Source: Aquabacterium sp. OR-4 (lineage in GTDB: Bacteria > Pseudomonadota > Gammaproteobacteria > Burkholderiales > Burkholderiaceae_C). From it: a stretch of 64,000 nucleotides of DNA. The translations under genes and the position numbers were made by a program. The DNA lies in the NCBI RefSeq assembly GCF_025290835.2, contig NZ_JAOCQD020000001.1, positions 1,364,001-1,428,000 of the forward strand. Direction: 5' to 3'. The notes beneath the pieces were generated by a model. The model saw only the letters and a list, made by a program, of their open reading frames with translations, did no database searches and was not told the DNA's origin. This document shows positions 1 to 29,256 of the stretch, one piece after another. How positions within the stretch are numbered: the first letter of the stretch is position 1; each line of letters opens with the position of its first letter.

Positions 1-2
1 AT

Positions 3-3000
3 CAACGGTCGTTTACCTGGACTGGACCGTTCGGCGGTGGCAAATCGTCGCTGGCTGTGGCCATCGCGAGCGCGCTGCATCCCGACAAGAATCTTCGCGC
101 CCAGGCCCGCAACGCCCTCAAGCTCGGCTCAATGCCCGCGTTCGACAAGGCGTTCCCGGTCCGTAAGGGCTGGCTAGTCGTTCCTGTGGTGGGCAAGCGT
201 GGCAGCGTCATTGCCGAGCTCAATGCCGCGCTCCGCAAAGCCAAGGGCAAAGGCACCGACAACCGCAAGGTGTCGCCGACCAACTTGATCAACGAGCTGG
301 TCCAAACCGCCGAAGATCGCTCGCAAGACGGCGTGCTGGTCATCCTCGACGAAATGGGCAAGTTCCTCGAAGCCTCGGCGCTGGGCCATGGCGACGATGT
401 CTATTTCTTCCAAGAGCTCGCAGAGGCTGCCGCCCGCGCGCATGGCAAGCTGGTGGTAGTCGGCGTGCTGCATCAATCGTTCGCCCAATACGGCGCGCGG
501 CTAGGCACGGACACCCGCGACGAGTGGGCCAAGGTTCAAGGCCGCTACATTGACTTGCCCTTTGTCGCCGCGAGCGACGAGGTCGTGGAGCTCATTGGCC
601 GCGCCATCGAGGCTGAGCGGCGCCCTGATTGGATGCTCGACGCGTCGAGTACCATCGCCGAATCCATCCGGTCGCGCCGCCCTGCCGTGGGCGCGAAATT
701 CGCCGAAGCGCTGGCCACTTGCTGGCCCCTGCATCCGGCCATGGCCGCGCTGCTCGGTCCGATCTCCAAGCGACAGTTCGGCCAGAACGAGCGAAGCACG
801 TTCGGCTTTCTGGCGTCAGTCGAGCCGCATGGATTCCATTCGTATCTCCAAGCGACCCCGATCAAGTCCGCGACCTGGTATCGGCCGGACAACTATTGGG
901 ACTACCTGCGCTCGAACCTCGAGCCCGCGATCCTCGCCTCTCCCGACGGACATCGCTGGTCGCAAGCGGTTGAGGCCATTGAGCGCACCGAAGCCAAGAC
1001 AGGCAACGCGTTTTTGGTCGAGCTGATCAAGAACATCGCCGTCATCGACTTGTTCCGCAATGGCTCTGGTCTGGCTGCCGACACGGCGGTCCTGGGCGCG
1101 ATCTTCTACAAGCGGCCCATCGCGGAAATCGAGAAGGGGCTCGAAGAGCTCGCGCGCATGCGCGTGGCTCTCTTCAAGAAGCACATTGGCGCCTGGTCTG
1201 TTTTCGAGGGCAGCGACTTCGACATTGACGCGGCCATCGCCAAGACCCTGGCCGCCTCGCCTGGCGTTGACTACAACCACCTCGCCCAACTGATGGGCTT
1301 GCATCCGGTCGTGGCCAAGCGCCACTATCACGAGACCGGCACCATGCGCTGGATGAATCTCTCGCTGAGCAAGCTCGACGAAGCCGAGCGCCTGGCAGAG
1401 AAGTACAAGCCATCGAAGGGCGAGTTTGGGCTCTTCGCCCTCGCCCTCCCCGGCCGAGGCGTGGGCATCAAGTCGGCCCATCGCCGGGCCGACGACGCCT
1501 CGCGGCTAGCTCCCTGGCCGGTGCTGGTTGGCATCCCGCGTAACCACGCCCGCATCGAGGAGCTCGGTGCCGAGTTGGTGGCTCTCGAAGCCGTAAAGGA
1601 CCGACACGAGCTGCAAGGCGACGCCGTCGCGCGGCGCGAAGTCCATGCACGCCTGGCAGCGGTCAAGGCCAACCTTGAAGAGCAGCTTCAAGCCGCCGTG
1701 ACCAACTCGCAGTGGTTCGATGGCAGCGAAGATTCCATTGAGGCCGGCGCGCGCCTCTCTCCCATCGCATCCAACCTCGCCGACGATCTCTATGGAAGCT
1801 CGCCGCTAGTGTGGAGCGAATTGGTCAATCGCGACAGCGTGTCGAGCAATAGCGTCAAGGCGCGCCGCGACCTGCTGCACCGTATGCTGTCCCACGAAGG
1901 TGCTGAGCACCTGGGCATCGAGGGATTCCCCGCCGAGCGAGGCCTCTACGAGACGCTTCTGCGCAGCACTGGCCTTCACCGCGAAGTCAACGAAGGCCAG
2001 TGGCGCTTTGTGCCGCCCGATCCCAAGGGCGAGATGCGATTCGCAGACATCTGGCAAGCGACTCGCGACATGTTCGTGGACTCGTCTTCTCGGGTGAAAG
2101 CCTCCGACATCCTTGAACGCTGGTCAGCCCCGCCCTTTGGCGTGAAAGCAGGCATTCAGCCGGTCATCCTCGCGGCATTCCTTTTGGCCCATCAATCGAA
2201 TGTGGCCGTCTACAAGGAAGGAATGTTCATCCCGCGCCTGACTGACGCGGACATCGACGAATATCTACAAGACCCTGCCCGCTTCTCGCTGCGCTGGGTA
2301 GTCATCGACGAAGAGAAGACTCGCATTCTGGGCGGCATCGCCAACATCCTGGCCGAGGTCGGACACGCCTCCGAGGCGCGCGACCCGCTGGAAGCTGCGC
2401 GCGGGCTCGTGGCCCTGGTCTTCAACCTCCCAGTCTGGGCGCAGCGCACCCATCAACTCAGCGATAGCGCTCGAGCCATTCGAGACACGCTACTTAAAGC
2501 AAGCGACCCCCACAAGGTCTTGTTTGTCGATCTGGTGGCGTTGCTGGATACCAGCGATGGTGACGCCTATGTGGAGGCATTGCGCGGCCCCATTGCCGAG
2601 TTGGCAGGGGCTTATGAGGCGATGCTGCGAAGCGTGGACGCGGCCATGCTCGAGGCCCTCGACGCTCCGCCGGACAAGCTTGACCGTCTGCGCGCTCGCG
2701 CTGAAGCCGTCGCCGGCATTACGGGCGACCTCCGCCAAGACTCGTTCGCGACCCGCCTGGCCAAACACGACGGCAGCACGGTCAGCATTGAGGGCATCCT
2801 GAGCTTGGCGGCCAACAAGCCGCCGCGCGACTGGACCGACCGAGACATCGACGCGGCGACGCTCGAGATCTCCAAGGTTGCGTTGCGGTTCAGGCAGGCT
2901 GAGGCCTTTGTCTCCGTCAAGGGCCGCAAGCCCAACAGCGAGGCTTTCGCCGTCATCATCGGCGCGGGGACCGGGGCGAAGATGATTTCGCGCTCGTTTG

Positions 3001-3155
3001 ACATCACTGACCGGCACCGCCAGGCCGTGGAGTCAAAGGCCGACGAAATCGCCGCCCAATTGAAGAAGCAAGGTTTGGGGACTGATGTCCTGTTGGCGAT
3101 TCTCGCCAAGGCGGGCATGAGGTTGACGGCCGATGAGGAGGGAAACCATGGCTGA
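3..3155 (+). CDS. BrxC-like P-loop ATPase of a defence system (5' end missing)
   Basis: The reading frame is open from base 3, so the start lies left of the window. About 1,050 residues are visible. A Walker A motif (GPFGGGKSS) sits at fragment residues 8-16, and a Walker B-like strand (VLVILDEMGKF) near residue 116. The annotated GTG at 57 falls inside the Walker region and cannot be the real start. The G-x-F-G-x-GKS loop plus the DE-x-G-x-F strand resembles BrxC/PglY ATPases of BREX systems; the remaining ~900 residues match nothing I recognise. It overlaps the next gene, a PAPS-reductase-like protein, by 8 bp, so the two are co-transcribed. That pairing recalls BREX type 4 (BrxC with BrxP). 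The ATPase class is fairly secure; the BREX assignment is inference. Confidence 0.65.
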   Translation, partial: QRSFTWTGPFGGGKSSLAVAIASALHPDKNLRAQARNALKLGSMPAFDKAFPVRKGWLVVPVVGKRGSVIAELNAALRKAKGKGTDNRKVSPTNLINELVQTAEDRSQDGVLVILDEMGKFLEASALGHGDDVYFFQELAEAAARAHGKLVVVGVLHQSFAQYGARLGTDTRDEWAKVQGRYIDLPFVAASDEVVELIGRAIEAERRPDWMLDASSTIAESIRSRRPAVGAKFAEALATCWPLHPAMAALLGPISKRQFGQNERSTFGFLASVEPHGFHSYLQATPIKSATWYRPDNYWDYLRSNLEPAILASPDGHRWSQAVEAIERTEAKTGNAFLVELIKNIAVIDLFRNGSGLAADTAVLGAIFYKRPIAEIEKGLEELARMRVALFKKHIGAWSVFEGSDFDIDAAIAKTLAASPGVDYNHLAQLMGLHPVVAKRHYHETGTMRWMNLSLSKLDEAERLAEKYKPSKGEFGLFALALPGRGVGIKSAHRRADDASRLAPWPVLVGIPRNHARIEELGAELVALEAVKDRHELQGDAVARREVHARLAAVKANLEEQLQAAVTNSQWFDGSEDSIEAGARLSPIASNLADDLYGSSPLVWSELVNRDSVSSNSVKARRDLLHRMLSHEGAEHLGIEGFPAERGLYETLLRSTGLHREVNEGQWRFVPPDPKGEMRFADIWQATRDMFVDSSSRVKASDILERWSAPPFGVKAGIQPVILAAFLLAHQSNVAVYKEGMFIPRLTDADIDEYLQDPARFSLRWVVIDEEKTRILGGIANILAEVGHASEARDPLEAARGLVALVFNLPVWAQRTHQLSDSARAIRDTLLKASDPHKVLFVDLVALLDTSDGDAYVEALRGPIAELAGAYEAMLRSVDAAMLEALDAPPDKLDRLRARAEAVAGITGDLRQDSFATRLAKHDGSTVSIEGILSLAANKPPRDWTDRDIDAATLEISKVALRFRQAEAFVSVKGRKPNSEAFAVIIGAGTGAKMISRSFDITDRHRQAVESKADEIAAQLKKQGLGTDVLLAILAKAGMRLTADEEGNHG

Positions 3156-3990
3156 GCGCCACGTTCTCGGAATCTCGGGAGGCAAGGACAGCGCCGCCCT
3201 GGCCGTTCACATGCGGCAAGCCCATCCCGAGCTCAACATCGAATACTTCTTCACCGACACGGGCGAAGAGCTGCCTGAGGTGTATGAGTTCCTGGGCCGC
3301 CTCGAGGGCTACCTCGGCAAGCCCATCGAGCGACTCAACCCCCGCCGCGATTTCGATTTCTGGCTGCGCGAATACAACCACTTCTTGCCTTCGCCGCAGA
3401 CGCGCTGGTGCACCCGCAAGCTCAAGCTGACGCCCTTCGAACAATGGGTCAAACCCATGATGGCCTCGGGCGACAAAGTCACAACCTATGTGGCCATCCG
3501 AGCCGACGAGGACTATCGCGAGGGCTACTCGTCCAAGCAAGACGGCTTGAGCGTATGCCTGCCCTTCCGCACGGCCGGCATCGACAAGGCCGGCGTGATG
3601 GACATCCTTGAATCGTCGGGGGTGGGCTACCCGAAGTATTACGAGTGGCGCTCGCGAAGCGGCTGCACGTTCTGCTTCTTCCAGCAGAAGATCGAGTGGG
3701 TGCGCCTCAAAGAGCGCCATCCCGACAAGTTCGAAGAGGCCAAGGCATTGGAAAAAGATGCCTTGGAGCACGGCTCCCCGTTCACCTGGTCATCAGGCGA
3801 GTCGCTTTCCGAGTTGGAGCAGCCTGAGCGCGTCGCCCAAATCGTTGCCGATTTTGAGAAGCGCAGGGCGCGCGCGCGCGCGGTAATCCCGATCAACCCG
3901 CTTCGCCCAGTTCGCTCTTGCCCCGAGGACATCGACGATGTCTATGGTGAGGATGAAGGCAACGGCTCCTGCGTGATTTGCCACAAATAG
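3148..3990 (+). CDS. PAPS reductase / PP-loop family protein (BrxP- or DndC-like)
   Basis: A 280-aa protein with the PP-loop SGGKDS at residues 10-15, which activates a substrate with ATP in PAPS reductases, thiouridine synthases and DndC. Cysteines that could hold a metal or Fe-S centre are C88 (WCTRK), C173/C176 (GCTFC) and C275/C278 (CVICH at the end). It is shorter than DndC (about 500 aa). I chose ATG 3148 over ATG 3133 because GAGGAGGG lies just upstream of it; this start overlaps the ATPase gene by 8 bp. In Dnd, Ssp and BREX-4 loci such proteins are linked to DNA sulfur modification, and I infer that role here. It might instead modify RNA or a nucleotide. It converges on the kinase gene, with 16 bp between the stops. 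Confidence 0.72.
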   Translation: MAERHVLGISGGKDSAALAVHMRQAHPELNIEYFFTDTGEELPEVYEFLGRLEGYLGKPIERLNPRRDFDFWLREYNHFLPSPQTRWCTRKLKLTPFEQWVKPMMASGDKVTTYVAIRADEDYREGYSSKQDGLSVCLPFRTAGIDKAGVMDILESSGVGYPKYYEWRSRSGCTFCFFQQKIEWVRLKERHPDKFEEAKALEKDALEHGSPFTWSSGESLSELEQPERVAQIVADFEKRRARARAVIPINPLRPVRSCPEDIDDVYGEDEGNGSCVICHK

Positions 3991-4006
3991 CGTTGAGCTG
4001 TCGGCG

Positions 4007-4882
4007 CTACAAGCTGATTGCGTTGACCACCGCCGCTCCGAACTGATTTGCCGTAGCGTATCGGCGGCTCTGAGAGTGCTGCAGGGCCGTCGAGATCGGG
4101 CCATACAAACTGTCCAGGCCAGCCCAATCCTCTCGAATGAGGATTCCGCTTGGGTGCCTGCGGTTGACCACCCACCAGAACACCGCTGCCAACTGGAACA
4201 CGTCGGAAGCGAAGTTGATTTCATCGTCAAGTCCAACGTGCCTGTTGTTCGCCTCGGGCGACATCCAGAAACGCGGGCCTGGTATTTGCCATTGAAGCGT
4301 CAAGTCTTCGCCGTCGGCTTTCTCTAGCGGTGCGCACAACCCCAGATCGCTGATCACCCATCGCTCGCCGACCACCAAAATGTTGTCTGGCTTGATGTCT
4401 CGATGTATGGCGTGTTGATGCAGCAGCTCCAACGCGCTCACTAGCCCCCGAAACTGAGCGGCATATATCTCAGGAGTGATCAGTTCGGAAGAGTCTCGAA
4501 CATATTCCCTCAACGAGCAAGCAGCGCGCTCCATGATCACGAAAGGCACCTCAATTCGATGCTTCTTTTTGAACCGATCCACCACCTCGCCCTCGCATGA
4601 GCCACTGGTGACAAAGTGAATGAGGTGATCGTGATTCAGCGCGGCAAGCTTTTCAAGCAAGGCCGCCTCCAATTCAAAACGCTCTTTGCGAGACGCCCCT
4701 CGTGAGTTAGTGAGAAATTTTACGGCGTAGATCGCGCCGTCTGCCTCGGCTGCGCACTCGCAAACTATGGCATTCCCACCTTCGCCCAACTGCTCTTGAA
4801 TGGTGTAAGCCCTGCCGTCTGCGCCAATAATGCGTTGCGACACCGCCAGGCTGTTTCGATCCGATATGAGCTGAAAAAACAT
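4007..4882 (-). CDS. Ser/Thr protein kinase, defence-operon accessory
   Basis: A 291-aa single-domain Hanks-type kinase with no membrane segment. Visible motifs are the glycine loop GEGGNA near residue 33, the ATP-anchoring lysine in YAVKF (K55), the catalytic loop HRDIKPDN at 160-167, the metal-binding DLG at 179-181 (a variant of DFG) and SPEA in place of APE. ATG 4882 gives a compact kinase; the open frame further upstream lies inside the DUF262 gene and reads as unrelated sequence. It is the last gene of the leftward operon, 19 bp after the DUF262 gene. Kinases occur in several phage-defence loci (for example PglW in BREX type 2), so a signalling or autoregulatory role is plausible, but the substrate is unknown. 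Confidence 0.8.
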   Translation of the reverse strand: MFFQLISDRNSLAVSQRIIGADGRAYTIQEQLGEGGNAIVCECAAEADGAIYAVKFLTNSRGASRKERFELEAALLEKLAALNHDHLIHFVTSGSCEGEVVDRFKKKHRIEVPFVIMERAACSLREYVRDSSELITPEIYAAQFRGLVSALELLHQHAIHRDIKPDNILVVGERWVISDLGLCAPLEKADGEDLTLQWQIPGPRFWMSPEANNRHVGLDDEINFASDVFQLAAVFWWVVNRRHPSGILIREDWAGLDSLYGPISTALQHSQSRRYATANQFGAAVVNAISL

Positions 4883-4901
4883 AGGATTTTCGCTCGGCCC
4901 G

Positions 4902-6212
4902 TCAAACCAATGGCAATTGCTTGTCGGCGGAAAAAGTGAGGTCTGCCTTCGCTCCGTCGTCAGACAAGATGATCCATCTCTCAGCGTCAATGCACTTTTG
5001 ATGCAAATGAATGGCGTTGTCCATCTGAAATACGCTCGAATCCTTTCTCCACCCCACAACTTCAATTTCATTGGTGGGAATGTCCTCCCCGCAACTGTCG
5101 CAACCGTAAGTCGGAGGCGGGCACATAGGGTCGCCGTGATCAGTCAACATCCGATAGAACAGGACGGCCGCGTCCCCTGTCGGGGGCTTTCTCAAGTAGG
5201 TCCCAGCCAAAAAGCTTCGCAAGAAGCCGACTCTCCATCGGCGACTGGACTGCGAATTGGCCTGAGACACACACTTGATGGCGTAGTCGCGACAGTCCCG
5301 AACGTCAGATTCCGGCGCGATGACATGATCCAAACATCTCAGGTCTTCGCGCAGCGGAGACAAATCCGCTCCTTCAAGAACTCCTCCGGCAGTGCGCAGT
5401 TCGTCAATGGCCAAGAGCATCGAATAGAAGTCGGCCTTCTGACGGAAACGCGTTTTGTCAATTGAAAAGTTTCCAGAAAATATCGCCGCCATGTCTGCAA
5501 CGACATTCAAGAATCGAGTTTCGACACCCTTCCGATCCTCATCATCCCAAGCTGAATACTGCAAGTAAAAAGAATCAAGGGCATCGCGCTTGTCCTGCGG
5601 ACCCGCAATCAACGCCGCCAGCAACTCGGAAACGTATTCGACATCTGCGAGGCGCCTGCGGTTGGCGACCGTGAAGATTCGAGCGTTGTCCAAGTAGTCG
5701 TGATTGGCAAGCTCCTCTGCCATCTTCAAGAATGCGCCGGGATAGTCTGCTCTACGCAACTCTTGCTTGGTCAAGGCCACCGAATACTTATTTAACCGGG
5801 AGTAAGTCTCCCTCAGCTCCTCTTCCGAGAACTCCATCGCCTCATTGAAGTCGATCCGATACTGAAGAAAAGCACTCCGAACGCCCTCAGGCAACTGCGA
5901 AAAATACAGGCCTTTGAACTCACCGGTATATGGCTTTTCAAGCGAGAACTTGTCAGCCATGAAGGCAAGAATTGCGCTGATGCGTTGCTGCCCGTCAATA
6001 ACCGTCCTATGCACTTGATCATTCTTGATTACTGAAGAGACAAATATCTTCGGCATCGGAATGCCGCGCAAGATGGTGTCCATCAACATCACTTTTGCCG
6101 CGTCACTCCACACTTCGAGCCGTTGGAAGTCAGGCTTTATCTCCAGCCGCTCCAACTGCTTCCAATCGCGAATGTCAGAAATAGGATGAGGGCTTGAATT
6201 CCAGCTTTTCAT
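4902..6212 (-). CDS. DUF262 (GmrS/SspE N-domain type) protein with DGQQR motif
   Basis: A 436-aa protein with an N-terminal DUF262/ParB-like fold. The family signature IDGQQR lies at residues 72-77, preceded by FQRLEVW. In GmrSD and SspE this domain is an NTP-dependent sensor or nuclease module, and in SspE it responds to phosphorothioate DNA. The C-terminus lacks a recognisable DUF1524/HNH nuclease and instead carries a small zinc-ribbon-like element (CDSCGED, later HLHQKC). It starts 21 bp after the FtsK-like gene and ends 19 bp before the kinase, so it belongs to the same operon. A role as sensor or effector of modified or unmodified DNA is inferred from context. Confidence 0.7.
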   Translation of the reverse strand: MKSWNSSPHPISDIRDWKQLERLEIKPDFQRLEVWSDAAKVMLMDTILRGIPMPKIFVSSVIKNDQVHRTVIDGQQRISAILAFMADKFSLEKPYTGEFKGLYFSQLPEGVRSAFLQYRIDFNEAMEFSEEELRETYSRLNKYSVALTKQELRRADYPGAFLKMAEELANHDYLDNARIFTVANRRRLADVEYVSELLAALIAGPQDKRDALDSFYLQYSAWDDEDRKGVETRFLNVVADMAAIFSGNFSIDKTRFRQKADFYSMLLAIDELRTAGGVLEGADLSPLREDLRCLDHVIAPESDVRDCRDYAIKCVSQANSQSSRRWRVGFLRSFLAGTYLRKPPTGDAAVLFYRMLTDHGDPMCPPPTYGCDSCGEDIPTNEIEVVGWRKDSSVFQMDNAIHLHQKCIDAERWIILSDDGAKADLTFSADKQLPLV

Positions 6213-6233
6213 TGCAATTCCTTGAGGCTATTT

Positions 6234-9200
6234 CTAATTATCTGCATTGATGGCTTGGACCGCCAAACTGATCTCATCGTCTGACAGGAACGGAGCCTGC
6301 GCAAAGACGAGTCCCTGCTCTCCATTGAGCTTCGCTGCCATGTGCCCCCGCCCGAGGAGCATTTCTGCTCCAGGACGGTCAAGCGCAATCTTTGAGGTCG
6401 CCTCACTGGCGACCTTCAGAATCAAGCGATTGCCCAGGTTCTCTCGCAACTGCATCGGCATCACATCCTTGTCCGGCCGCTGGGCCGCGAAGATCAGGTG
6501 GATGCCTGCGGCCCGAGCCTTGACGCCGAGTCGCTGCACAGCCGCGCCCACCGCGCCCTTATAGGCGTCATCGAGCATCCAATCGGCGAACTCGTCATGG
6601 ATCAGGAACACCATGGGCAGGCGAGCGTCTGGGGCTGCTTTGGCGTTGAAGGTCGCCAGGTCGCGCGCTCGGGCTTGGGCAAAGGCCCGGTATCGGCTTT
6701 CCATCTCCTCGACCAAGGCTTCCAGCACTTCATTCGAGCGCTCCTTGGTGGTGATGATGGCCTCGCGCATGTGGGGCAAGTCCTCCAACGCGGCGTAGTC
6801 CACGCCCATCTTGGGATCGATGAGGATGATCTGGGCCAGCTCTTTCGGGTTGGTTGCCGCGATGTCCAGAAGGATCGCCTGAATCAGCACTGACTTGCCG
6901 CTGCCAGTGGCGCCAGCCACCAGGGAATGCGGTTCATGCGAGGACAGGCCGCCGAACTCGCCGCCGAGGTTCAGATAGAGCAGCGAGCCATTGATCTCTT
7001 GAAGGCCCAGCACGAACGAGGTGTTGATCCCCGCCACGTTGCGATTGAGCTGCCGCTTCGCCCACAAGTCCCACAGCGACACGGCTTGGCGCTTGACGCC
7101 AGCAATCGTCACCACGATCTCGCCAGGCTTGGGCTGCACCGTCACCAGGTTGATGGCGTGCGTGGTCAGCAACTGCGTGCGCTTGGCCTCGATGTCCTCG
7201 ACCCTGAGCCGGTCCGAGCCCGCCAGCCGCACCAAGCAGCCATTGGGCGTCATTCGCGTGCCCAGGACAGCCGCCTGCAAACCGTAGCTGTTCAATGCCG
7301 TCTTGAGCTTCTTGGTCGTTTCCTGCGCCCATGCTTCGCGCTCGTCGTCCGCCACGGCGAGGCCGGCTTGCTTTGTGGCAATCAAGACCGACAAATGCTC
7401 GCCCACCGCCGCTGCGACAGGCGTTGGCGCAGCGGCGACTTCATATTCTTGAACCGAAGGAGCCACGGGCTTGGTTTCTGACGGAGCGGTCGCCGGCTGA
7501 GCCTCCGGCGCCGGGGGCGCCGATTCGGCCGTGGCCGCGCCATCCTGCACCGCCGCATCCTGCTGGCCAAGCTGCTCCATCATCGCGTGCCAAGCCACGC
7601 GCGCGGCGGGCCGGGTGAACGATGCTGATTTCCAAGGCTCTGAGCCGCCGAGTTGCCCGCGAACGCCAGTCGCGCCAGTTGCAGCCGAATAGGCCTCAAC
7701 CAGTTTGCGCAGCTCCGGCCGGTCGAATACTTCCTGCCAGGCCTGGACGCCGTCAGTGTTGTCGATCTCAAGCTGCTCGGACGCCGACCGGGATTGGCCC
7801 GCTTCGGCCGAATGGACGAAGACGTGCGAGTACCCGCGCAGCGCGATGTCCACATCGCCTTCGCGCAACTTCGAGCGCGCACGCGCAAGCAAACCGGAAA
7901 GGCCTGGCGGAATCTCAGCGTCGATCAGCAAATCGGCCAGACGCGAGAGCCACACGTCGCGGTCGAGGCGCCCAGGATCGCCAAACAACGCGGCCCGGAA
8001 CGTTGTCAGCGTCGCCATGAGCTGGGCTTTCGAAGAGCGCTTGGCCTCGGCGGAGCCTTCGGCGGCGACGTATTTGGACTCGACCACGGCGATGCGCAGT
8101 CGAATCCCATCATCGACCTCTTCAACACAGAGGGCCAAGATGTCAGCGATGCGGCTTTCGCGCTGAGCCAGCCAATCGGCGTAGTCGTCGAGCAGGAAGA
8201 ACACGCTGAAAGACTGACCTGCCTTGGCCTGGGCGGCAAACTCCTCTACAACCAAGTGGCGGCTCAGGACCAGCCCAAGCATTTCGCCAGCGGACACGCC
8301 GCGCTTGGCGGCGCGCAGGACGATGTCGCCGGAGACCGACAGCGCATCCTTCTTCATGCGGGCGGCCACCCCGTCAAGTTCGTCGCTGCCCAGAGAGAGG
8401 CCCAACTCGCCGAGCCGTCGGCGAATGAGCACGCCGAGCAGGCGCAGCTCTGAGGTCGAGCTCACGATCATGTTGCGGCCGTTGGTGGACGCTCGGCGAT
8501 ACCGGACGACCGTGATTCCGTTGTGCTGCAACTGCCGCTTGTCGAGCAGCTCGTCATAGGTAGCAACCCACTCGGCCAACGCGTGCGCGTCGTTCATGGT
8601 CGAAGCCAACGCCTCATGCTGCAACGAAATGCGACGGGCAGGCAGATACCGAGCTCCGACGGGCGCATCGGTTTGGCGATGCACAGCGGCAACCGCCCCG
8701 ACATAGGCCCATCCCGAAGCGGTCTGCCACGGGCACGTCAGGAAGGTGGTGGATTTGAGCTCGTTCTCGCCAGAGACGCTGCGATAGGACCAGCGCGACG
8801 GGGCGTGCTCCAAGCTCGGCCGGTCGTTGGTCCAGTCCACCGGAAGCCACTCTTCGACCGCCGTGCGCGACACCACGTCGTGCAGGAATGCCACGTCGAA
8901 GGGCTTGAAGCCGCCCTCGCCTTGCCCCGGCGTGGCCGAGGCCGGCGTCACCGCGATGCGCAGCTTGGAGATGAAGTTGTCCGAGGTTTCGCTGACCACC
9001 GGCAGGTCGGGATCGTCTCCCGCCTTGTTGACCAATTCGGCGTAGACGCGGCGCAGCTTGGCCGGATCGCTGTGCCTGACCGACACGCTGCACTGGAAAT
9101 CATCCTCGGCTTGCAGGCCCGCGAGCTCGCGCACGGTCGCCAGGGGCAACTCCGCCGCGTCAGCGTTGTAGAGCAAGACGCTCAGATTGGCTGCCTCGTG

Positions 9201-11630
9201 GGGCTGCAGGCCGATGTAGCGCTCCAACAGCTCGCGCGCCTGTTTGGCTGCGGAGGTCGGATCGACATCGGTCATGGAGTCCTCTTCGCCCCGGACCGGC
9301 CGCTCAAAAAGGCTGTATCCGTTGATGGTGCTGCTCTCGGCGACCAGCAGCGGCTCGCTGCCGCGCTGCATGACCGCGATCTCGGGGTAGAACGGATGCG
9401 CGAGCTCCTCGGAAAACTCCCGGAAGAAGATGTCGCGGTGCCCGAACAGCACGCTGTCGCTGGTGAGCAAGTGGGTCGCCAAGCCCGCAACGCGGCGGGT
9501 CTTGACCGCCAGCGCCTTCATCCGCTCTGGATGCCATGGCGGGATGATGAGCGAGGGCTGCTCGCCTGAAATGCGGGCCGTGCCAATCGAGAGCACTTCG
9601 GCCACCAAGCGGGCACGGCACACGTCGCCGCGAGCATGGACCATCAGAGCACTCAGCAGCGCCGAGAACGACTCGGCCTGCCGCAGGACGGATTCGCCTT
9701 GCAGGCCCGTGTCGATGAAGTCCTTCATGGCCAAGATGTAGTCGGCCTCGAAAGCATCCCACGCCGCGCGCAGCTCGTCGCGCTGCTCCTTGGTCAGGCG
9801 GCCCTCATTGGCAAGCTCTTTGATCCGGTCCTTGATTTCGGCGCGCAAGCTGCGCAGCTTGTTGGCCGGCGGAATCAGCGAGCCGGCGTCGCGGGAGAAC
9901 GTGGCCTCCAGCGTACCGGTGTCGAGCAGCGAGACGCTTTGCACGCCGCCCTTCTTGCTGACCAAGCGGCGCGGAACCTCTGTGCAGCCGACCGCGCCCT
10001 TTTCCAGCAGTCGGCGCATGTCGGAGACCAACGCCAATCCGATGGACTCGGGGCGATAGCTCCACACAAGCTGCGTCTTGTCGATGACGGTCTCGCGGTC
10101 GCCGATGCGCTGCACGAGCGCCACGTCAAACTTGATCTGGACCGCGTTTCGAGCCAACGACGAAACGGGCTTTAGCGTAGCGCCGCGAAGCTCCTTCTCC
10201 TTGGCGAAAAACTTTTCGTAGTGGAAGAGCGGGTCGGGAAGGTTGCCCGCGCCCATGCCCTTGACCTCCCACTTCACCCGCGAGCCCATGAGCTCCTGGA
10301 TGCCCCGATACATCGCCGAGAAGTAGCACCCCACGTCGTGGTTGAAGCGAGTGCGCCATTCGGTCCGGCCCTTGTTGACCGTGAACCGCAAGAAACGCTC
10401 GCCGGCCATGTCGTCGGCGCCGGCCAACAGGTGGTGAGTCACGCTCGCAAAGCCGTCGAGAAAATCATTGCACTCGATGGCCTTGCCGAAGATCGCCTTC
10501 TCCCAACGAGCGTGAAGCTGCCGCGACGGCTCCATGAAGCGCCGGTGCAGCTCGAAAAAGACCTTGTCGTCGTCATTCCACTCGGAGCGCTTCTCGCGCG
10601 CCTTGAGATCTTCAAGGTGGCGCTTCCACTTTTCGTCGAGGGCTTCCGCGTCGTCGCAGTCGTGCTCGAAGAATTTCAACGTGTGCTCGGCCAGACCTTG
10701 GAGCTTCTCCTTGGGCTTGTCGAAGATGTGGCACACGCCATCGGTTTCCCATTCGAGCTCGGCAACGTCGGCTGCAGGCTGGTTCTCGCCCATGGGGGCA
10801 TTGATGAACGCCTCCAAGGCGACGCGCGCCGCATCGGTGATGCTCGCAGCGTTGTCGTCCAAGCGCTGGCGCATTTCATCGGGGTCCAGCGGCTGCCCGT
10901 TGGGTCGCAGGCGCAGCAGCAGCGGAGCGCGGTGGGCGAAGAGCTTCTCAAACGCCTTTTTCCAAGGCTTATAGGACGCGCCGTAGGTCTTCGCGCTGGC
11001 GAAGAATGAGGTGTCTCGGGGCAAGCCCACCTTCGGCAACGACCAGCCAATGGCGTCGCGAATGGGCAGGCCGCGCGTCGCCGACATGGCTTCGGTCACG
11101 TGGGCGCAGAAGTCGCCAAGCTGCACCAAGGACAGGTCATAGGCGGAGATCAGGCCCTTGAGGGCCGAGCGGAACACCTGGCGGTCATCGGGAACCGGCG
11201 CCATGCCAGCGACATGGCATGTGGCATCGACCCATGCCTCTTCGTTCGCGCGCAGCTCTTTGGCGCCCAAGGCTGTGACGTGCCCAAGGGTGTCGGCCAG
11301 GTTGTGCTCGTTGCCGTTGGCCGTGAGGATCGCCTCTTTGCTTGTTTGGGCGTTGTTGCGCACGAAGCCGGCGTTGTGTTGGATCAGGGCCTCGGGCGGC
11401 AAGCCCTGGCCCTCGACCAGCGCCTCGGGGATCATGAGATCGACGCGCGCGGCCAAGTCGTGATTGGCAAGCACCGCGCGGGCCACCGAGGCGACTTGGG
11501 AAGAAGACAGCTTGTCGAGGCGGAACAGCGCCGCCGAGTCCTGCGCCGAGCCGTCGGCCTGGCGAGCGTCATTGATGCGCTTGGCCAGGATGTCGGCGCC
11601 GACGCGCCCAATGATCCGATCGGTCAGCAA
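6234..11630 (-). CDS. DptH-like giant FtsK/HerA-type translocase
   Basis: A 1,798-aa protein. The last ~260 residues form an FtsK/SpoIIIE-type ATPase: Walker A GATGSGKS near residue 1575, IILIDPKMG, Walker B FLIHDEFADW near 1680, then an arginine-finger region (AAQRPDKDV) and IALDRPGAEMLLG. The first ~1,450 residues show no domain I can name, apart from a low-complexity Pro/Ala/Glu linker near 1,390-1,450. Size, C-terminal FtsK domain and position after F- and G-like genes fit DptH of phosphorothioation-dependent restriction (DptFGH). The start overlaps the upstream gene by 7 bp, implying translational coupling. It probably moves along or processes DNA as the motor of the restriction arm. The DptH assignment rests on architecture and order, not on alignment. 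Confidence 0.68.
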   Translation of the reverse strand: MLTDRIIGRVGADILAKRINDARQADGSAQDSAALFRLDKLSSSQVASVARAVLANHDLAARVDLMIPEALVEGQGLPPEALIQHNAGFVRNNAQTSKEAILTANGNEHNLADTLGHVTALGAKELRANEEAWVDATCHVAGMAPVPDDRQVFRSALKGLISAYDLSLVQLGDFCAHVTEAMSATRGLPIRDAIGWSLPKVGLPRDTSFFASAKTYGASYKPWKKAFEKLFAHRAPLLLRLRPNGQPLDPDEMRQRLDDNAASITDAARVALEAFINAPMGENQPAADVAELEWETDGVCHIFDKPKEKLQGLAEHTLKFFEHDCDDAEALDEKWKRHLEDLKAREKRSEWNDDDKVFFELHRRFMEPSRQLHARWEKAIFGKAIECNDFLDGFASVTHHLLAGADDMAGERFLRFTVNKGRTEWRTRFNHDVGCYFSAMYRGIQELMGSRVKWEVKGMGAGNLPDPLFHYEKFFAKEKELRGATLKPVSSLARNAVQIKFDVALVQRIGDRETVIDKTQLVWSYRPESIGLALVSDMRRLLEKGAVGCTEVPRRLVSKKGGVQSVSLLDTGTLEATFSRDAGSLIPPANKLRSLRAEIKDRIKELANEGRLTKEQRDELRAAWDAFEADYILAMKDFIDTGLQGESVLRQAESFSALLSALMVHARGDVCRARLVAEVLSIGTARISGEQPSLIIPPWHPERMKALAVKTRRVAGLATHLLTSDSVLFGHRDIFFREFSEELAHPFYPEIAVMQRGSEPLLVAESSTINGYSLFERPVRGEEDSMTDVDPTSAAKQARELLERYIGLQPHEAANLSVLLYNADAAELPLATVRELAGLQAEDDFQCSVSVRHSDPAKLRRVYAELVNKAGDDPDLPVVSETSDNFISKLRIAVTPASATPGQGEGGFKPFDVAFLHDVVSRTAVEEWLPVDWTNDRPSLEHAPSRWSYRSVSGENELKSTTFLTCPWQTASGWAYVGAVAAVHRQTDAPVGARYLPARRISLQHEALASTMNDAHALAEWVATYDELLDKRQLQHNGITVVRYRRASTNGRNMIVSSTSELRLLGVLIRRRLGELGLSLGSDELDGVAARMKKDALSVSGDIVLRAAKRGVSAGEMLGLVLSRHLVVEEFAAQAKAGQSFSVFFLLDDYADWLAQRESRIADILALCVEEVDDGIRLRIAVVESKYVAAEGSAEAKRSSKAQLMATLTTFRAALFGDPGRLDRDVWLSRLADLLIDAEIPPGLSGLLARARSKLREGDVDIALRGYSHVFVHSAEAGQSRSASEQLEIDNTDGVQAWQEVFDRPELRKLVEAYSAATGATGVRGQLGGSEPWKSASFTRPAARVAWHAMMEQLGQQDAAVQDGAATAESAPPAPEAQPATAPSETKPVAPSVQEYEVAAAPTPVAAAVGEHLSVLIATKQAGLAVADDEREAWAQETTKKLKTALNSYGLQAAVLGTRMTPNGCLVRLAGSDRLRVEDIEAKRTQLLTTHAINLVTVQPKPGEIVVTIAGVKRQAVSLWDLWAKRQLNRNVAGINTSFVLGLQEINGSLLYLNLGGEFGGLSSHEPHSLVAGATGSGKSVLIQAILLDIAATNPKELAQIILIDPKMGVDYAALEDLPHMREAIITTKERSNEVLEALVEEMESRYRAFAQARARDLATFNAKAAPDARLPMVFLIHDEFADWMLDDAYKGAVGAAVQRLGVKARAAGIHLIFAAQRPDKDVMPMQLRENLGNRLILKVASEATSKIALDRPGAEMLLGRGHMAAKLNGEQGLVFAQAPFLSDDEISLAVQAINADN

Positions 11631-13159
11631 TTTTCTTCTCCCTTGAATCCAAACGGGTTCTCCACAAACGAGCAGGAGTCGGAGAGCCGACGCACAAGCC
11701 CAAGCCCAACCAGCCGCGCTTCGAGATTGGCGCGGTTCTCGCTGAGCACTTCCTGGTCCACCTTCTTCTCGGCGACAAGGCGTGAGCCTTCCGCGTCGCC
11801 AATGACGAGCCCATAGCGCCTCTTGGCCTCTGCCAAGAACTCGTCGAACTGCATGCGGTCATCGACGATGGCCACCACCAGAGTCTTAATGAGCCGGTCG
11901 TTTGGGGCATATCGCGTGCGCCGCGCGAGGCGCCGGGAGCTGAGCCCGATGGCGCGCGACCACGAAGCATGAATCTTCCCGACGTGCTGCTCATGGCGCG
12001 AGATGGCCATGTCCACCAGCCTCTCGATCAGCTTGTCGCCAGACATGCGCGTGTAGTCGGCGTCGTCGTCCGAATCGGCCGATGGCCACTGGAACAACTC
12101 GCGCATGACGCTGGCCTGCGCCGCGTCGGGGTAGTCCGATTTGGAGGCGGCTTCCCATTCGGGCAGCAAGCGGGCTTGCTCGATGGAGGCGCGGACCGCC
12201 TTGACCGAAAGGCCTTGGTTGAGCTGGTAGCTATCCCCCGACAGGGCGCGAACCTTTGTGCGCTCCTTGGACACGATCTCACAGACAAACTCGACCGGCT
12301 CGGCGTCACCGGCCTGCGTCTTGGCCTGCTCGAGGAAATACAGCAGGAGGTTGAGGCCCGCCGAGGCGATCAGGTGCTCCAAGGCGTCGTAGATCGGCAT
12401 GTCCTTGGCCAGGATCGCGAGCCAGTCATCGCAGAGCTGGTCAAAGCGAGGATGGGACGCGTGGGGCAGATAGCCCACGTCGCGCGAATTCGACGCGAGC
12501 TGGGGCTCACCTTGCAGCGCGCGCACCAAGCGATTCATCGGCGCCGCCCGATTGAAGAGGCGCTGTGAAAGCTGGGCACCAAGTTCTGGGCCGCGAGCCG
12601 CGCGGCTGAGCATGAGATACAGCAGCTCGCCCGTGCGGGCGAAGAATCGCCGGTCGTTGCTCGCGCCGCCCGAGTCGATCCGCAAGTCCTCGAACAAAGC
12701 GTCGGGGCCAAAGGGAAAGACGAACTTGGAGCTCCAACGCTTGTTGCTGCGGGCCTCGAACGCGGACGAACGCAGCAGCTCGATAGCCTTGGCGAAGTCG
12801 TCAAAGCTCGAAAACGCCTTGCGCAGATAGCCCATGTCCTCGTCGCCAAGCTTGGTCGCGTCTTGGGCAAACAAGGCGCTCCACTCGCGCCACTTCTCGT
12901 CGTCGGTGATCGACCGCTCGCGGATGGCTTCGACAAAAGGGTTGTTGAACAGCAGGCCGCGCAGGCGGATTTGATGCTGCGGCCGATATCGCACTTTGTC
13001 GGTCGGCGTGGCGACCAGCGGGCTGTCAAGGTTTGACCCCAGCACGCCCAGGAATTCGAGCACGGTCAAATGCGGCAACTGCTCGTCGTAGAGGCGGTGG
13101 CCCCAGATGTGCTCATCGACGGCGAAGTCGACCCGGTCAATGTCAATGCGTTGCCTCAT
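11624..13159 (-). CDS. DptG-position protein of the defence operon
   Basis: A 511-aa mostly charged, helical protein with no motif I recognise and no signal peptide or membrane segment. The start overlaps the stop of the DptF-like gene by ATGA, and its 3' end overlaps the FtsK-like gene by 7 bp, so it is the middle of a tightly coupled trio. Order and size (E. coli and Salmonella DptG are around 440 aa) suggest a DptG counterpart, but DptG has no clear catalytic motif to check. The name is therefore a positional inference. The coding frame itself is secure from its length, overlaps and codon use. Confidence 0.55.
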   Translation of the reverse strand: MRQRIDIDRVDFAVDEHIWGHRLYDEQLPHLTVLEFLGVLGSNLDSPLVATPTDKVRYRPQHQIRLRGLLFNNPFVEAIRERSITDDEKWREWSALFAQDATKLGDEDMGYLRKAFSSFDDFAKAIELLRSSAFEARSNKRWSSKFVFPFGPDALFEDLRIDSGGASNDRRFFARTGELLYLMLSRAARGPELGAQLSQRLFNRAAPMNRLVRALQGEPQLASNSRDVGYLPHASHPRFDQLCDDWLAILAKDMPIYDALEHLIASAGLNLLLYFLEQAKTQAGDAEPVEFVCEIVSKERTKVRALSGDSYQLNQGLSVKAVRASIEQARLLPEWEAASKSDYPDAAQASVMRELFQWPSADSDDDADYTRMSGDKLIERLVDMAISRHEQHVGKIHASWSRAIGLSSRRLARRTRYAPNDRLIKTLVVAIVDDRMQFDEFLAEAKRRYGLVIGDAEGSRLVAEKKVDQEVLSENRANLEARLVGLGLVRRLSDSCSFVENPFGFKGEENC

Positions 13160-15051
13160 TCGGAAATCCTCACGGTGATGGGCCGAGAGAACCCGTGGCC
13201 GCCCTGCTCAATGTCGATGAAATTCAGCGTCAGCGATCCACTGTCGGCGCCCGCCTCATCGTCATCGTCCTGCTGGCTGCGGCCCCGGATGAGCTCGGCC
13301 TTGCGCAGCAGCTTGGCCTTGAACGCAAGCATGTCTTCCAAGCACTCGCTGGAGAAGCTGCCTGGCAGCGCGCCTTCGGCCACCCGCGAGAGAAACTCAA
13401 AGCGCACAGGCGTAAGGTCGAAGGCCACGAAATTTCCAGCGCCCTGTGCAAGCGACACGTCTAGACAGGGGCGGCCCGTCTTCGCCTCGAGCTTGACCGC
13501 CATGCCAACACCATTGAGCCGGCGCGATGGGGCCTCGGTGTCGCACAGCACGCTCACGCGCGACTGCGTGAAGCCACCAGAGCTGGCGACAAAGATGCGG
13601 TCCACGTTGTCGATCAAGAGGCCCGTCATCACGCGATTGAGGCCGCGCACCAGCCGGCCGCGCACGGTCTCGGCGACGGGCTTCTTGTCGAGCAAGGCCG
13701 CGCGCATCTCCATGTATTCGCCCGCGAAGCGAAACACGGTCATCGACCAGAAGGGGTAGCCCTCCTCGCCCGGAGGCAGCGTGAAGAAGAGGCGGCGGCG
13801 CTGCTCTTGCAGCAGGTCCATGAAGCCGGCGGCTCCGCCGTCGATGCGGGCGGCCTCCTCGCCTTCAAGATACTTGTCCTGGGCGCTCAGCAGCCGTGGC
13901 GTGGCCCCATAGACGGGGTCGCTCGCAATCAAGCGGGCGAACGCCGGCGCGAGCTTCACGTCGTCTTTCCCGTAGACCAACAAGCCGTCCGCGCCATTGG
14001 TGGTCTCGTCGCCCACGCCAAAGGCCGCCATCGCCTTGAAGACCGGCCGGTCGGCGAGGCGCCGCTTGGGAAGATTCGCGCCGAAAGCGTTGCCGTAGAC
14101 GCTCCCGCGATCCACCGCCCCTTGCTCCTGAATCCACGCGACCTCGGCACAGGACATCAAGCCGTCCTTGGCGTCGCGGTGGCCCAAGATCATGTTGGCG
14201 CACAGAGCGAGCAAGTCTCGAACCGGCAAATGCTGCCCGTTGAGCCTGGCGATCTCCACCAAGTCGCCCAGCCGGCGTCCGAGTTGCGCGCCATCGCCAG
14301 TTCCAAGAAGCCGTTGACGGTTCTCATAGATCGGGCACACCTTATCGCCCGATTTCAGCGAGCACCGGCGGCAGTTGTCCCATTCGGCGTGCTTGGCAAC
14401 GGCGGCAACCACCTCCTCGAGCGCCATGCGGCCCACGCTGCGGCTGAGGTCGAAAACGGCTAGGCGATCTGGCTCTTTGCCCGCCTGCAAGAAGAATTCC
14501 TGCAGCGGCTTGCGCAGCGGGTGGCTGCGCCCTTGCCTGCGCCCAAGGTCGCGAAGCCTGTCGAGCACTTGGCCGTGGTTGGCCGCCAGGATGACGATCT
14601 CGCTGTCGTCGCGTTCAAGCACCGATTTTTCGAGCCGTGCCAGGGGAGCATCGCTTTCCTCGCCATTGAACTCGCTGAGGTCTTTGATGAAGACTGCCAA
14701 GCGGCCGTCAGCCAGGCGATGTTCTTTGATGTTGCCCTTGGCGGCCCACGCGCGCGGGTCGCCGCCCATGGAGGTCCAAAGCGCGCGGCAGTGGTAGGTC
14801 TTGCCGTCGCCAGCCGTGCCCGCGATCAGTATGGAGCCAGGCTTTCCAGACGCCACATGCGCCTTCATCGGCTCGAGCATCGGCGTGCTCAGCGCGATGG
14901 GCTGCACCTTAGCCCGGCCGACGGCTCCGGCCACGTATTCATCGAACATCGTCAGGTTGTTCGGCGTCGGACCGTAGGTGCGCAGGAAACGCACCCACGC
15001 GCTCGACGGCGGCGCGCCTGGCTCATGGGCAATCGTGTTTTGTTCTGTCAA
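13156..15051 (-). CDS. DptF-like P-loop ATPase
   Basis: A 631-aa protein. The P-loop GTAGDGKT lies at residues 78-85, followed by a Walker B-like ILAANHGQV segment near 155 and a cysteine cluster CRRC-x8-C (C227, C230, C239) that may bind zinc. I chose a TTG start at 15051 because GGGAG lies about 8 bp upstream and no ATG with a good ribosome site gives the full N-terminus; the next in-frame ATG would remove 34 residues. DptF of phosphorothioation-dependent restriction is likewise a ~550-aa ATPase encoded first in dptFGH. The ATGA overlap with the next gene supports one operon. ATPase function is clear; DptF identity is likely but not proven. Confidence 0.62.
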   Translation of the reverse strand: MTEQNTIAHEPGAPPSSAWVRFLRTYGPTPNNLTMFDEYVAGAVGRAKVQPIALSTPMLEPMKAHVASGKPGSILIAGTAGDGKTYHCRALWTSMGGDPRAWAAKGNIKEHRLADGRLAVFIKDLSEFNGEESDAPLARLEKSVLERDDSEIVILAANHGQVLDRLRDLGRRQGRSHPLRKPLQEFFLQAGKEPDRLAVFDLSRSVGRMALEEVVAAVAKHAEWDNCRRCSLKSGDKVCPIYENRQRLLGTGDGAQLGRRLGDLVEIARLNGQHLPVRDLLALCANMILGHRDAKDGLMSCAEVAWIQEQGAVDRGSVYGNAFGANLPKRRLADRPVFKAMAAFGVGDETTNGADGLLVYGKDDVKLAPAFARLIASDPVYGATPRLLSAQDKYLEGEEAARIDGGAAGFMDLLQEQRRRLFFTLPPGEEGYPFWSMTVFRFAGEYMEMRAALLDKKPVAETVRGRLVRGLNRVMTGLLIDNVDRIFVASSGGFTQSRVSVLCDTEAPSRRLNGVGMAVKLEAKTGRPCLDVSLAQGAGNFVAFDLTPVRFEFLSRVAEGALPGSFSSECLEDMLAFKAKLLRKAELIRGRSQQDDDDEAGADSGSLTLNFIDIEQGGHGFSRPITVRISE

Positions 15052-15112
15052 TTGCTCGCTCCCGTATGAATGTTGTCTATCTCGTTGCGGATTGGGCTTG
15101 AACGCAGCAACG

Positions 15113-15994
15113 TCACGCGGGGCTCCCCGACGACGAAGCGCCTGGCGCGAGCATCGCGCTCTCCACGCCATAGAGGGTGGGCGTGTTGCGAAGCCATAGG
15201 TGGTGGGACGCAGGGTCGAGCCGGTGGTCGGGGCTCGCGTCGATGGACCATCGCCGAAGCACATAGCCGGCAAGCGCGGCCCGCGTCTTGATCTTCAACA
15301 CGCCGCCGTCCATGCCATAGTCGGCCTCAATCGCTTTGGGTTGCTTGACGCCGGGATGGGGAACGACCTCCAAGTCCACGATCCGCGCCCACTGCTCGTC
15401 GGCACCCAACAGCTCATGCTCCTCGACTGAGCCGGCTACCTCTGTGGCTTTCGTAATGCGCGATAGGACGAAGTCGCCAAACCGTGACTTACTTCTGTCG
15501 AATGCACGAACGTGCCATCGCAACCCGTTGTCTGCCACCGCAACCGGAACCAGTTCGCGCAAAGCCGCCCCCGATGACAACGACAGATAGGTCACCTTGA
15601 GCGCTCTTTTGGCGCACATTGCCCGCGTCACAGTAGCAAGAGTTTTCAGGTCAGGGCGAACCAAATTGCCAGGCCCTTCGCAAGGTACGGCCTTGCGAAG
15701 CTTCAGATCCAGACCGTCACCGAACCCGAGCAGCAGCCAGGCCAGTACGCGATCTGGCGAAAACTCAAATACAGGCTTGAATGCGTCCGCCGGCCTGTAG
15801 CAACGGGCAAGCACGTCGTATGAGAGGTTTGCCGGGGCCAATTGACGATAAGCGGTCAGGTCTCGAGTGGCCGCAGCAGGCTTCACTCCAAACCGCTCTT
15901 CGATATCAGCCCGCCGCAACTCGCCTGCGAAAAACGCTTTCAGCTCAAGGTATGCAACCCGCTCCCGTTGCGACTGCGACAGGTCAGCAACCAT
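15113..15994 (-). CDS. WYL-domain transcriptional regulator (BrxR/CapW type)
   Basis: A 293-aa protein with an N-terminal winged-helix segment (LELKAFFAGELRRADIEERFGV, about residues 13-35), then a WYL-type beta-barrel domain (LKVTYLSLSSG; RELVPVAV; WHVRAFD) and a C-terminal extension. This layout matches BrxR/CapW, WYL repressors found as first genes of defence operons. ATG 15994 places the helix-turn-helix at the usual distance from the N-terminus and has AGGGG upstream; ATG 16087 would add 31 unrelated residues. It lies 61 bp upstream of the DptF-like gene in the same direction and probably controls that operon, perhaps responding to a ligand released by infection. Confidence 0.75.
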   Translation of the reverse strand: MVADLSQSQRERVAYLELKAFFAGELRRADIEERFGVKPAAATRDLTAYRQLAPANLSYDVLARCYRPADAFKPVFEFSPDRVLAWLLLGFGDGLDLKLRKAVPCEGPGNLVRPDLKTLATVTRAMCAKRALKVTYLSLSSGAALRELVPVAVADNGLRWHVRAFDRSKSRFGDFVLSRITKATEVAGSVEEHELLGADEQWARIVDLEVVPHPGVKQPKAIEADYGMDGGVLKIKTRAALAGYVLRRWSIDASPDHRLDPASHHLWLRNTPTLYGVESAMLAPGASSSGSPA

Positions 15995-16129
15995 CGCTTG
16001 ATGGCCCCTGGGCTTGGGTCGAGACGAAAATGATGGGCAGGTGCATTCTGAGCATCTTACCCTGATCAGTTTGATGACCATGCGCACCGATAACTGTGTT
16101 TTTATCCACCACCCACATTCACGCCTTGA

Positions 16130-17101
16130 TCAAGGGCGATGTTGTGACCGTGGTGGCTTGCGGCGATCAGACTGCTGAATCGAAAGTTCACCACCCCTAC
16201 GAACCACCGTCACTGATCTCCGCGAACTTGGCAGCGCCTCCTTGGGGCGACGCCACGGCGACAAATCGGACGCCGGTCCCTCGACGTTTGGCGCCACACG
16301 CTGTGGGTCCGGCCTTGGCTCGGTCCGCTCAGCCAGGCGCGCCTTCATGCGCAACAACTTGCACATCTGCTCCTCAACGGCCGAAACGCGCGCGTTACGC
16401 CGTCGCAGCCGCGCGTTGAGGCTGGCGCGTCCCCGGGCCGCAGCACCGTTGACGCCAACGTGCACGGTGGGCAACCGTCCAATCCCTCGATCCTTGAAAC
16501 TCCTGTGATCAACGCGCTCGGCAGATCCCTTGCGGGCAAGCGCAGCATTCACCGAAAGCTCCCAACGTGGCCGCAGCCACGACACGGAATCCGCTGCGCC
16601 ATGTCGCTTGCACGCGATGGGGTCGAGTCGTTCTGCTTTTTTACCGAGCACACCGTCGGCATCGACCGTACATGCGGTCAGGAGCAAGTGTGCGTGATGA
16701 TTCCGATCATCACCGCCGCGGGATGGCGCGTGCAAGGCGCAGTCCACGCCGACACCAAACTCGGTGGCGATGTCTCGGGAGAAGCCGAAAGCCAACGCGG
16801 CGCGCTCGTCGGCATCCAGCTCGTTGGGAAGCGCGAGCACAACTTCGCGCGCGAGCACGGCATCACGCCGGCGGTGGTGCAGCTCCAGGTCGTTCCAGAA
16901 TTTTTCGCGATCCCGCACAAGCCGGCCACCCGGCAGGTGGATGCGCGCGTCAAGCACGCCCTTGCGGCGGCGGTAGTCAAAGACCTGACCGGTGCGTTGA
17001 TCGGTGATCAATGCGCCGGCGCGATACGCCGCCGCAGCTGTAGCGGATCGGCCGCTGGCGCGAGCAATGGGCGGGCGAGCGCTCAAATGGAAAATTGCCA
17101 C
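16130..17101 (-). CDS. mobA: MobA/MobL-family (MOBQ) relaxase
   Basis: A 323-aa relaxase that nicks oriT and carries the strand into the recipient. The N-terminus MAIFHL, the likely nucleophile Y26 in AAAAYRAG, and the histidine cluster NHHAHLLL at residues 134-141 (with H124 upstream) match MobA/MobL. The nuclease domain looks intact to about residue 220; the tail is Arg/Pro-rich and there is no helicase or primase extension, so it is a short member of the family. It starts with GTG preceded by GGAGG. The oriT lies 42-79 bp upstream, divergent from the TraD/MobC-like gene, as in small mobilisable plasmids. The gene ends 136 bp from the WYL regulator start and is separate from the defence operon. 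Confidence 0.85.
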   Translation of the reverse strand: MAIFHLSARPPIARASGRSATAAAAYRAGALITDQRTGQVFDYRRRKGVLDARIHLPGGRLVRDREKFWNDLELHHRRRDAVLAREVVLALPNELDADERAALAFGFSRDIATEFGVGVDCALHAPSRGGDDRNHHAHLLLTACTVDADGVLGKKAERLDPIACKRHGAADSVSWLRPRWELSVNAALARKGSAERVDHRSFKDRGIGRLPTVHVGVNGAAARGRASLNARLRRRNARVSAVEEQMCKLLRMKARLAERTEPRPDPQRVAPNVEGPASDLSPWRRPKEALPSSRRSVTVVRRGGELSIQQSDRRKPPRSQHRP

Positions 17102-29243: not shown

Positions 29244-29256
29244 AGCTCCTCCTTTT

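Follow-up and report, generated by a model that had tools for sequence, protein, structure and literature searches.

A DUF262-kinase pair in the variable cargo slot of an SspBCD-SspFGH phosphorothioate locus from Aquabacterium sp. OR-4

Introduction

In Vibrio anguillarum FF-93, CPSCA sites receive phosphorothioate (PT) on one strand from SspBCD and IscS, and DNA without the PT mark is damaged by SspFGH; IscS can substitute for SspA (main text of PMC8092258). Here we analyze a locus of this kind in Aquabacterium sp. OR-4, found in the left 16 kb of a 64,000-nucleotide stretch of its genome (NZ_JAOCQD020000001.1, positions 1,364,001 to 1,428,000; hereafter the window). It has sspB, sspC, sspD, sspF, sspG and sspH in common with the SspABCD-SspFGH system of V. 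anguillarum, and has in addition a WYL-domain regulator and a DUF262 gene paired with a Ser/Thr protein kinase gene, the word kinase being absent from the main text of PMC8092258. A preliminary description of the window had suspected that this exact gene set, with its kinase, was unpublished, and for the set as a whole our searches agreed. The core is not new, since SspBCD-SspFGH was published in 2021 (PMC8092258). The new part is the DUF262-kinase pair, which lies between sspH and sspD in a variable slot; neither this cassette nor the slot was found in print in our searches of open-licence PMC literature (listings, and passages of a few papers).

SspE and DndI are described as PT-sensing DUF262 effectors with a PT-sensing tyrosine, and DndI is cotranscribed with dndFGH and functions without them (accessible parts of PMC13251355 and PMC11662687). 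The DUF262 protein of the window shares with the SspABCD-SspE and DndBCDE-DndI systems the DUF262/ParB-fold domain, the DGQQR and P-x-aromatic-Q motifs and the linkage to PT genes, and like DndI it is tied to a restriction module (dndFGH in the case of DndI). It differs from SspE and DndI in that no HNH domain was found in it, Phe replaces the Tyr, and a separate kinase (or SIR2 protein) would be the effector.

Less close systems share single elements with the locus. MADS (MAD6 kinase, MAD7, MAD8) also combines a kinase with SspG/SspH-like proteins, although we know it from model names only, and no MADS paper was found in the literature searched. MADS is methylation-based by name, however, and the similarity is partial, the MAD6 and MAD7 matches lying below the NCBIfam curated cut-offs. 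PbeABCD is an archaeal PT restriction system that works with Dnd and has a PLD domain and a helicase in one protein (PMC6459918, as far as accessible). It resembles a helicase-GHKL-PLD cassette that some relatives carry and the window does not, in that PLD and type III Res/helicase domains are the PT partner in both (the helicase of relative L087 matches PbeA, E 1.3e-18), whereas PbeABCD has the SMC-like PbeC and the relatives' cassette a GHKL ATPase. The auxiliary effectors reported around BREX (PMC12839542) and Dnd (PMC10853773) have in common with our observations the idea of backup effectors near a modification core; the main texts of both papers do not name SspFGH, and their accessible parts describe no fixed slot in Ssp loci.

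Results

Judged by its sequence matches, the core of the locus is an SspBCD-SspFGH PT defence system of the published kind. All eight genes of the preliminary description are real, present and open. They form two convergent sets, with sspC and sspD on the + strand and the WYL regulator, sspF, sspG, sspH, the DUF262 gene and the kinase gene on the - strand (Table 1). The left flank, which lay beyond that description, contains sspB, then a tyrosine integrase gene and an intact dusA. sspB (L005:6907-7833; C1:1362907-1363833) is the next gene left of sspC and matches the PADLOC SspB model at E 6.2e-115; sspB, sspC and sspD are contiguous on the + strand. By the PADLOC models, the SspBCD and SspFGH modules are each complete as one run, and the two adjoin each other. 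No cysteine desulfurase was found among the open reading frames (ORFs) read beside sspB, and three NifS-type matches at other places in the genome all score below the NifS cut-off.

To place the DUF262-kinase pair, we located the nine proteins of the locus in 71 SspH loci from GTDB species genomes. Eight loci were left out for a truncated sspH and 12 slots ran off their contigs, leaving 51 closed slots. In one of these (L047) sspBCD is on the same strand, so that 50 convergent sspH/sspD junctions could be compared. The junction holds more than 400 bp in 45 of the 50, with 1.1-7.7 kb of cargo, and is nearly empty in the other five (64-199 bp). Inserts above 400 bp were absent from every other junction: F/G (0/63), G/H (0/67), B/C (0/47) and C/D (0/54). 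The sspH/sspD junction is thus a slot for interchangeable cargo, with about ten cassettes in relatives.

Slot ORFs were called with a simple longest-ORF script, each blastp cluster takes its family name from a single scanned member, and stacked cassettes are counted in each class. Five of the 51 closed slots are empty. DUF262 is paired with a kinase in 6/51 and with a SIR2 protein in another 6/51, four of the latter with an Mrr-type nuclease; kinase and SIR2 proteins never occur without DUF262 in closed slots. The most frequent content is a double-GHKL ATPase with a protein of ~670 aa (10/51, five on each strand), followed by a helicase, GHKL ATPase and nuclease (7/51). The nuclease gene of this helicase cassette gave a PADLOC 'Effector, Endonuclease' match and looks PD-(D/E)XK-like by eye; it is replaced by Pfam PLD proteins in L087, L091 and L096 and by a protein annotated as PLD in L092. 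Six slots each hold GIY-YIG with a DndB-like protein, or a deoxyribosyltransferase-like protein of ~130 aa with one of ~230 aa. Less common are SspE (3/51), a methyltransferase pair (2/51), a STAND-like ATPase below Pfam cut-offs (2/51), TIR with a DEDDh exonuclease (1/51) and IS66 with two unassigned ORFs (1/51). Two further arrangements were noted. A family of ~310 aa lies beside sspD at L043:20138-21067 and also in L019, L027, L039 and L073 (as short ORFs in L039 and L073); its sole scanned member, from L043, matched nothing in Pfam or PADLOC. On a Sphingopyxis plasmid (L082:14001-16459), a shorter DUF262 gene (coding sequence 14001-15035) stands behind sspH, with an IS1380-like element in the kinase position.

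Cassette turnover was followed on an SspF+SspG tree of 66 rows, 53 of them labelled by hand with one label per locus (L045 as kinase only, L012 as methyltransferase only). At least 32 label changes are needed among the 53 rows, compared to 37.75 +/- 1.67 (minimum 33) when labels were shuffled 300 times. Slot contents are therefore inherited to some extent, yet exchanged nearly as often as random labels. The four rows closest to the window are three with a kinase cassette and L008, which has the GHKL cassette. Compared to the window, SspF, SspG and SspH of L028 are 91-94% identical, SspB 74% and SspC 66%; therefore, the restriction and modification halves recombine too. The slot of L045 (6,889 bp, its end set by hand) has a kinase and a GHKL cassette stacked, and between them, behind the kinase, a second SspH C-terminus of 57 residues (L045:17647-17817), which is likely a recombination scar.

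The kinase, SIR2, double-GHKL and helicase cassettes all adjoin SspBCD on records without SspG as well. The DUF262-kinase pair has sspBCD and a cysteine desulfurase as neighbours in three cases: two Asticcacaulis plasmids and genome G060, where helicase-GHKL-PLD is next to it as well. A Hymenobacter plasmid has the co-directional run sspB-C-D-DUF262-SIR2. An A. baumannii plasmid record has sspDCB with the GHKL pair facing it. In Mesorhizobium and Pleomorphomonas, sspBCD is found together with helicase-GHKL-PLD, a cassette that in Geminocystis occurs with an SspD-type protein. These cases span Pseudomonadota, Bacteroidota and Cyanobacteriota. An SspG profile was run over 13 whole records or genomes. 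It matched none of the eight with these cassettes, plasmid records being searched without their chromosomes. The five that it matched are the known SspFGH carriers; four of them had contributed rows to the profile and the Sinorhizobium record had none. On a Pseudanabaena plasmid (Cyanobacteriota) the DUF262-kinase pair again follows SspH. Three SspG-free PT loci also have a protein of ~775 aa annotated as DndB (L079:22721-25048; L080:22701-25028; L092:5007-7343), whose scanned copy (L079) has no PADLOC match.

The DUF262 protein of the window has a ParB-fold NTPase domain with DGQQR and P-D-F-Q-R, a helical middle and a CxxC...HxxC finger. No nuclease domain was found by Pfam, in which only GmrSD_N matched at E<=0.1, without GmrSD_C. 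A GmrSD type IV restriction nuclease was ruled out on this basis. SspE, to which the preliminary description had likened it, was ruled out too: the protein has 436 aa, compared to 714-797 positions in the PADLOC SspE models, matches none of them and carries no GmrSD_C/HNH domain. HNH-type matches to its C-terminus were absent among the matches listed (VIA rows), which alone proves nothing. It does match the PADLOC model NsnA (E 6.2e-37), a name that could not be traced in the literature search. Its profile gave two chance matches only against the sequences of solved structures (E 0.43 and 0.44). The structure model was built from a 103-row alignment (the window protein, 97 of the 120 listed matches out of 797, and five SIR2-type loci), which fixed the N-domain; this domain was poor in an earlier 17-row model (pLDDT 73.6), whose fold search was meaningless. 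Foldseek with the 103-row model returned nothing at E<=0.001, the best match being BrxU (2.0e-3).

The partner kinase has the catalytic motifs YAVKF, HRDIKPDN and DLG. Its C-lobe is short, because the Pkinase match ends at position 197 of 263. Its best PADLOC matches are the PD-T4-6 and MAD6 kinases.

The DUF262 family is rare in genome samples: at E<=1e-50 it was present in 3/398 (the genome studied here, G060 and G175), and at E<=1e-80 in 1/78 (G060) and 1/369 (the genome studied here) in further samples. The G175 protein (33%) is a different DUF262, with no ssp genes within 20 kb. Viral contigs yielded no DUF262 relative and one SspH relative (L090), and none of the 94 phage records with a DUF262 match reached 80% query coverage.

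The preliminary description had proposed that the locus may couple BREX type 4-like modification to DptFGH-like restriction. Its outline was borne out: a sulfur-type modification module is joined to a restriction module of three genes, one of them for an FtsK protein, and DUF262 and a kinase come in addition. Both family assignments had to be abandoned. SspC and SspD score far higher with Ssp models than with BrxC and BrxP. Genome-wide searches gave no match to PglZ or BrxL, each of the two exceeding its cut-off in 2 of 14 control genomes, and BREX type 4 membership was thereby ruled out. SspF, SspG and SspH are matched best by Ssp models and by no DndF/G/H model at E<=0.1 (PADLOC, sequence models), and DndD is without a match genome-wide, a search in which nine of the 14 controls matched, none over the cut-off, so that it has no true positive control. 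Dnd/Dpt membership was ruled out from these two results.

Two gene starts were revised. The kinase very probably starts at ATG 4882, 19 bases past the DUF262 stop, rather than at 5071, since the long ORF from 5071 would share 170 bases with the DUF262 gene and reaches its kinase domain only at residue 89. The sspF start at 15273 is too far upstream because the PADLOC match begins with residue 94, which puts the start of homology near 14994. The first gene, sspC, has 1,050 codons inside the window (ORF 3-3155); its full ORF (1,109 aa, L005) starts 175 bases left of it. sspF and sspG overlap by 4 bases and sspG and sspH by 7, and the kinase and sspD stops converge 16 bases apart. The WYL gene is optional: at E<=1e-8, a homologue lies directly upstream of sspF in 1/71 loci (L013, 71%), and distant matches lie away from sspF in 2/71 (L061, L075).

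The tyrosine integrase ORF (L005:5215-6431) starts ~80 bases from the start of dusA, and integration beside dusA is likely; the search for its attachment repeat in the window found only scattered 14-mers and did not locate the right-hand boundary of the island. A MobA/MobL relaxase gene (16130-17101, - strand; Pfam E 5.1e-50) adjoins the WYL gene, and a plasmid-type KfrA_N protein is encoded at 21461-22429. Therefore, the defence genes probably ride a mobile element. The window also has a gene for a 473-aa AAA+ ATPase with Lon-like similarity (17703-19124, - strand) and a type II-like CBASS set (26482-30393, - strand).

Table 1. Features of the Ssp locus and of the CBASS set, in window positions.
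Feature	Position	Strand	Basis
sspC, P-loop ATPase, BrxC-like	1..3155	+	PADLOC SspC PDLC02780 E 0, 1382 bits; also BrxC model E 2.8e-105
sspD, 285-aa PAPS-reductase-type sulfurtransferase	3133..3990	+	PADLOC SspD E 3.2e-139; Pfam PAPS_reduct E 1.1e-6
Variable cargo slot, between convergent sspH and sspD stops	3991..6233	.	Junction comparison across relatives
Ser/Thr protein kinase, 291 aa (start very probable)	4007..4882	-	Pfam Pkinase E 4.2e-22; YAVKF, HRDIKPDN, DLG
DUF262 protein, 436 aa	4902..6212	-	ParB-fold NTPase domain with DGQQR
sspH, 1,798 aa, FtsK/HerA-type translocase C-terminally	6234..11630	-	PADLOC SspH E 0, 2501 bits; Pfam FtsK_SpoIIIE E 8e-34
sspG, 511 aa	11624..13159	-	PADLOC SspG E 8.3e-220
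sspF, ATPase	13156..14997 (ORF to 15273)	-	PADLOC SspF E 2.6e-246, residues 94-702 of long ORF
WYL-domain regulator, optional	15113..16087	-	Pfam WYL E 6.7e-9
CBASS E1-E2 protein	26482-28176	-	PADLOC E 4e-157
CBASS CD-NTase	ORF 28176-29486	-	PADLOC E 1.1e-143
CBASS patatin phospholipase effector	29257-30393	-	PADLOC E 3.1e-90

Discussion

We favor, with moderate confidence, the view that this locus is an SspBCD-SspFGH PT defence system that acquired the DUF262-kinase pair as a second effector, carried in its cargo slot. The genetic linkage of the cassette to PT genes is well supported, and it is quite probable that the pair is a PT-linked effector cassette; PT sensing and the action of the kinase are what we infer beyond this. 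Together with a cysteine desulfurase of the host, SspBCD would write PT marks, and SspFGH would attack unmarked DNA as in the published Vibrio system. The DUF262 protein is best read as an SspE-like ParB-fold NTPase that has no nuclease and would instead gate a kinase. Its NTPase domain, with an aromatic residue at the site of the PT-sensing tyrosine of SspE and DndI, may detect the state of DNA with regard to PT or infection, and PT marks together with a phage-derived change could cause it to release the kinase. Having no nuclease, it would hand the signal to the kinase, which may phosphorylate cell or phage proteins and so block the infection or the cell. That DUF262 both senses PT and gates the kinase is put forward tentatively, at slightly less than an even chance. 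In the sister cassette, a similar DUF262 sensor would act through an NAD-consuming effector of the SIR2 type.

The main rival is that the pair regulates SspFGH, the kinase phosphorylating SspF, SspG or SspH to switch restriction, as the kinase present in MADS might suggest. The DUF262 gene lies on the same strand as sspH and only 21 bases behind it, the kinase matches MAD6 (E 3.2e-27), and weak but significant similarities link SspG to MAD7 (E 2.8e-8, C-terminal residues 409-496) and SspH to MAD8 (E 7.2e-23). However, the pair adjoins SspBCD where no SspG was found, in two plasmid records and one whole genome, and SIR2 or GHKL cassettes occupy the same position in other loci. We therefore consider a regulatory role unlikely.

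A slightly less likely possibility is that the slot is merely a place between convergent genes where insertions are tolerated, filled with passenger defence genes unrelated to PT. The presence of general defence genes (TIR with DEDDh, STAND-like) and of an IS66 element among the cargo would fit this idea. On the other hand, four cassettes recur beside SspBCD without SspG, in other arrangements and in three phyla, and therefore look like alternative PT effectors. In addition, the slot occupants include SspE, a known PT reader, and a DndB-like protein. The combination of BREX type 4-like modification with DptFGH-like restriction is hardly credible, since the matches of SspC to BrxC and of SspD to BrxP (E 4.2e-10) are far surpassed by those to Ssp models and PglZ, BrxL, DndD and DndF/G/H gave no match.

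On a broader scale, the balance tips a little towards SspBCD as a shared PT-writing platform, with about ten cassettes that replace one another at the sspH/sspD junction or partner SspBCD without SspFGH, among them PT-gated DUF262-kinase and DUF262-SIR2 signalling pairs. In the main text of PMC8092258, 2,211 of 2,678 sspBCD loci have neither sspE nor sspFGH, and the authors ask about further restriction partners. Similarly, 5,518 of 5,530 A. baumannii Ssp systems have no sspE next to them, for which a new variant or an epigenetic role was suggested, and a histidine kinase was noted in the region (accessible part of PMC12421847). The cassettes described here are concrete candidate partners for sspBCD without sspE or sspFGH, including the double-GHKL pair of the A. 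baumannii record; as a guess, the double-GHKL ATPase is the histidine kinase meant there. If the platform reading is true, there would be several new classes of PT-dependent defence, and many 'orphan' sspBCD loci would be explained. If a PT sensor acts through a kinase or a SIR2-type NADase rather than a nuclease, PT defence would extend from DNA cutting to cell signalling and abortive infection.

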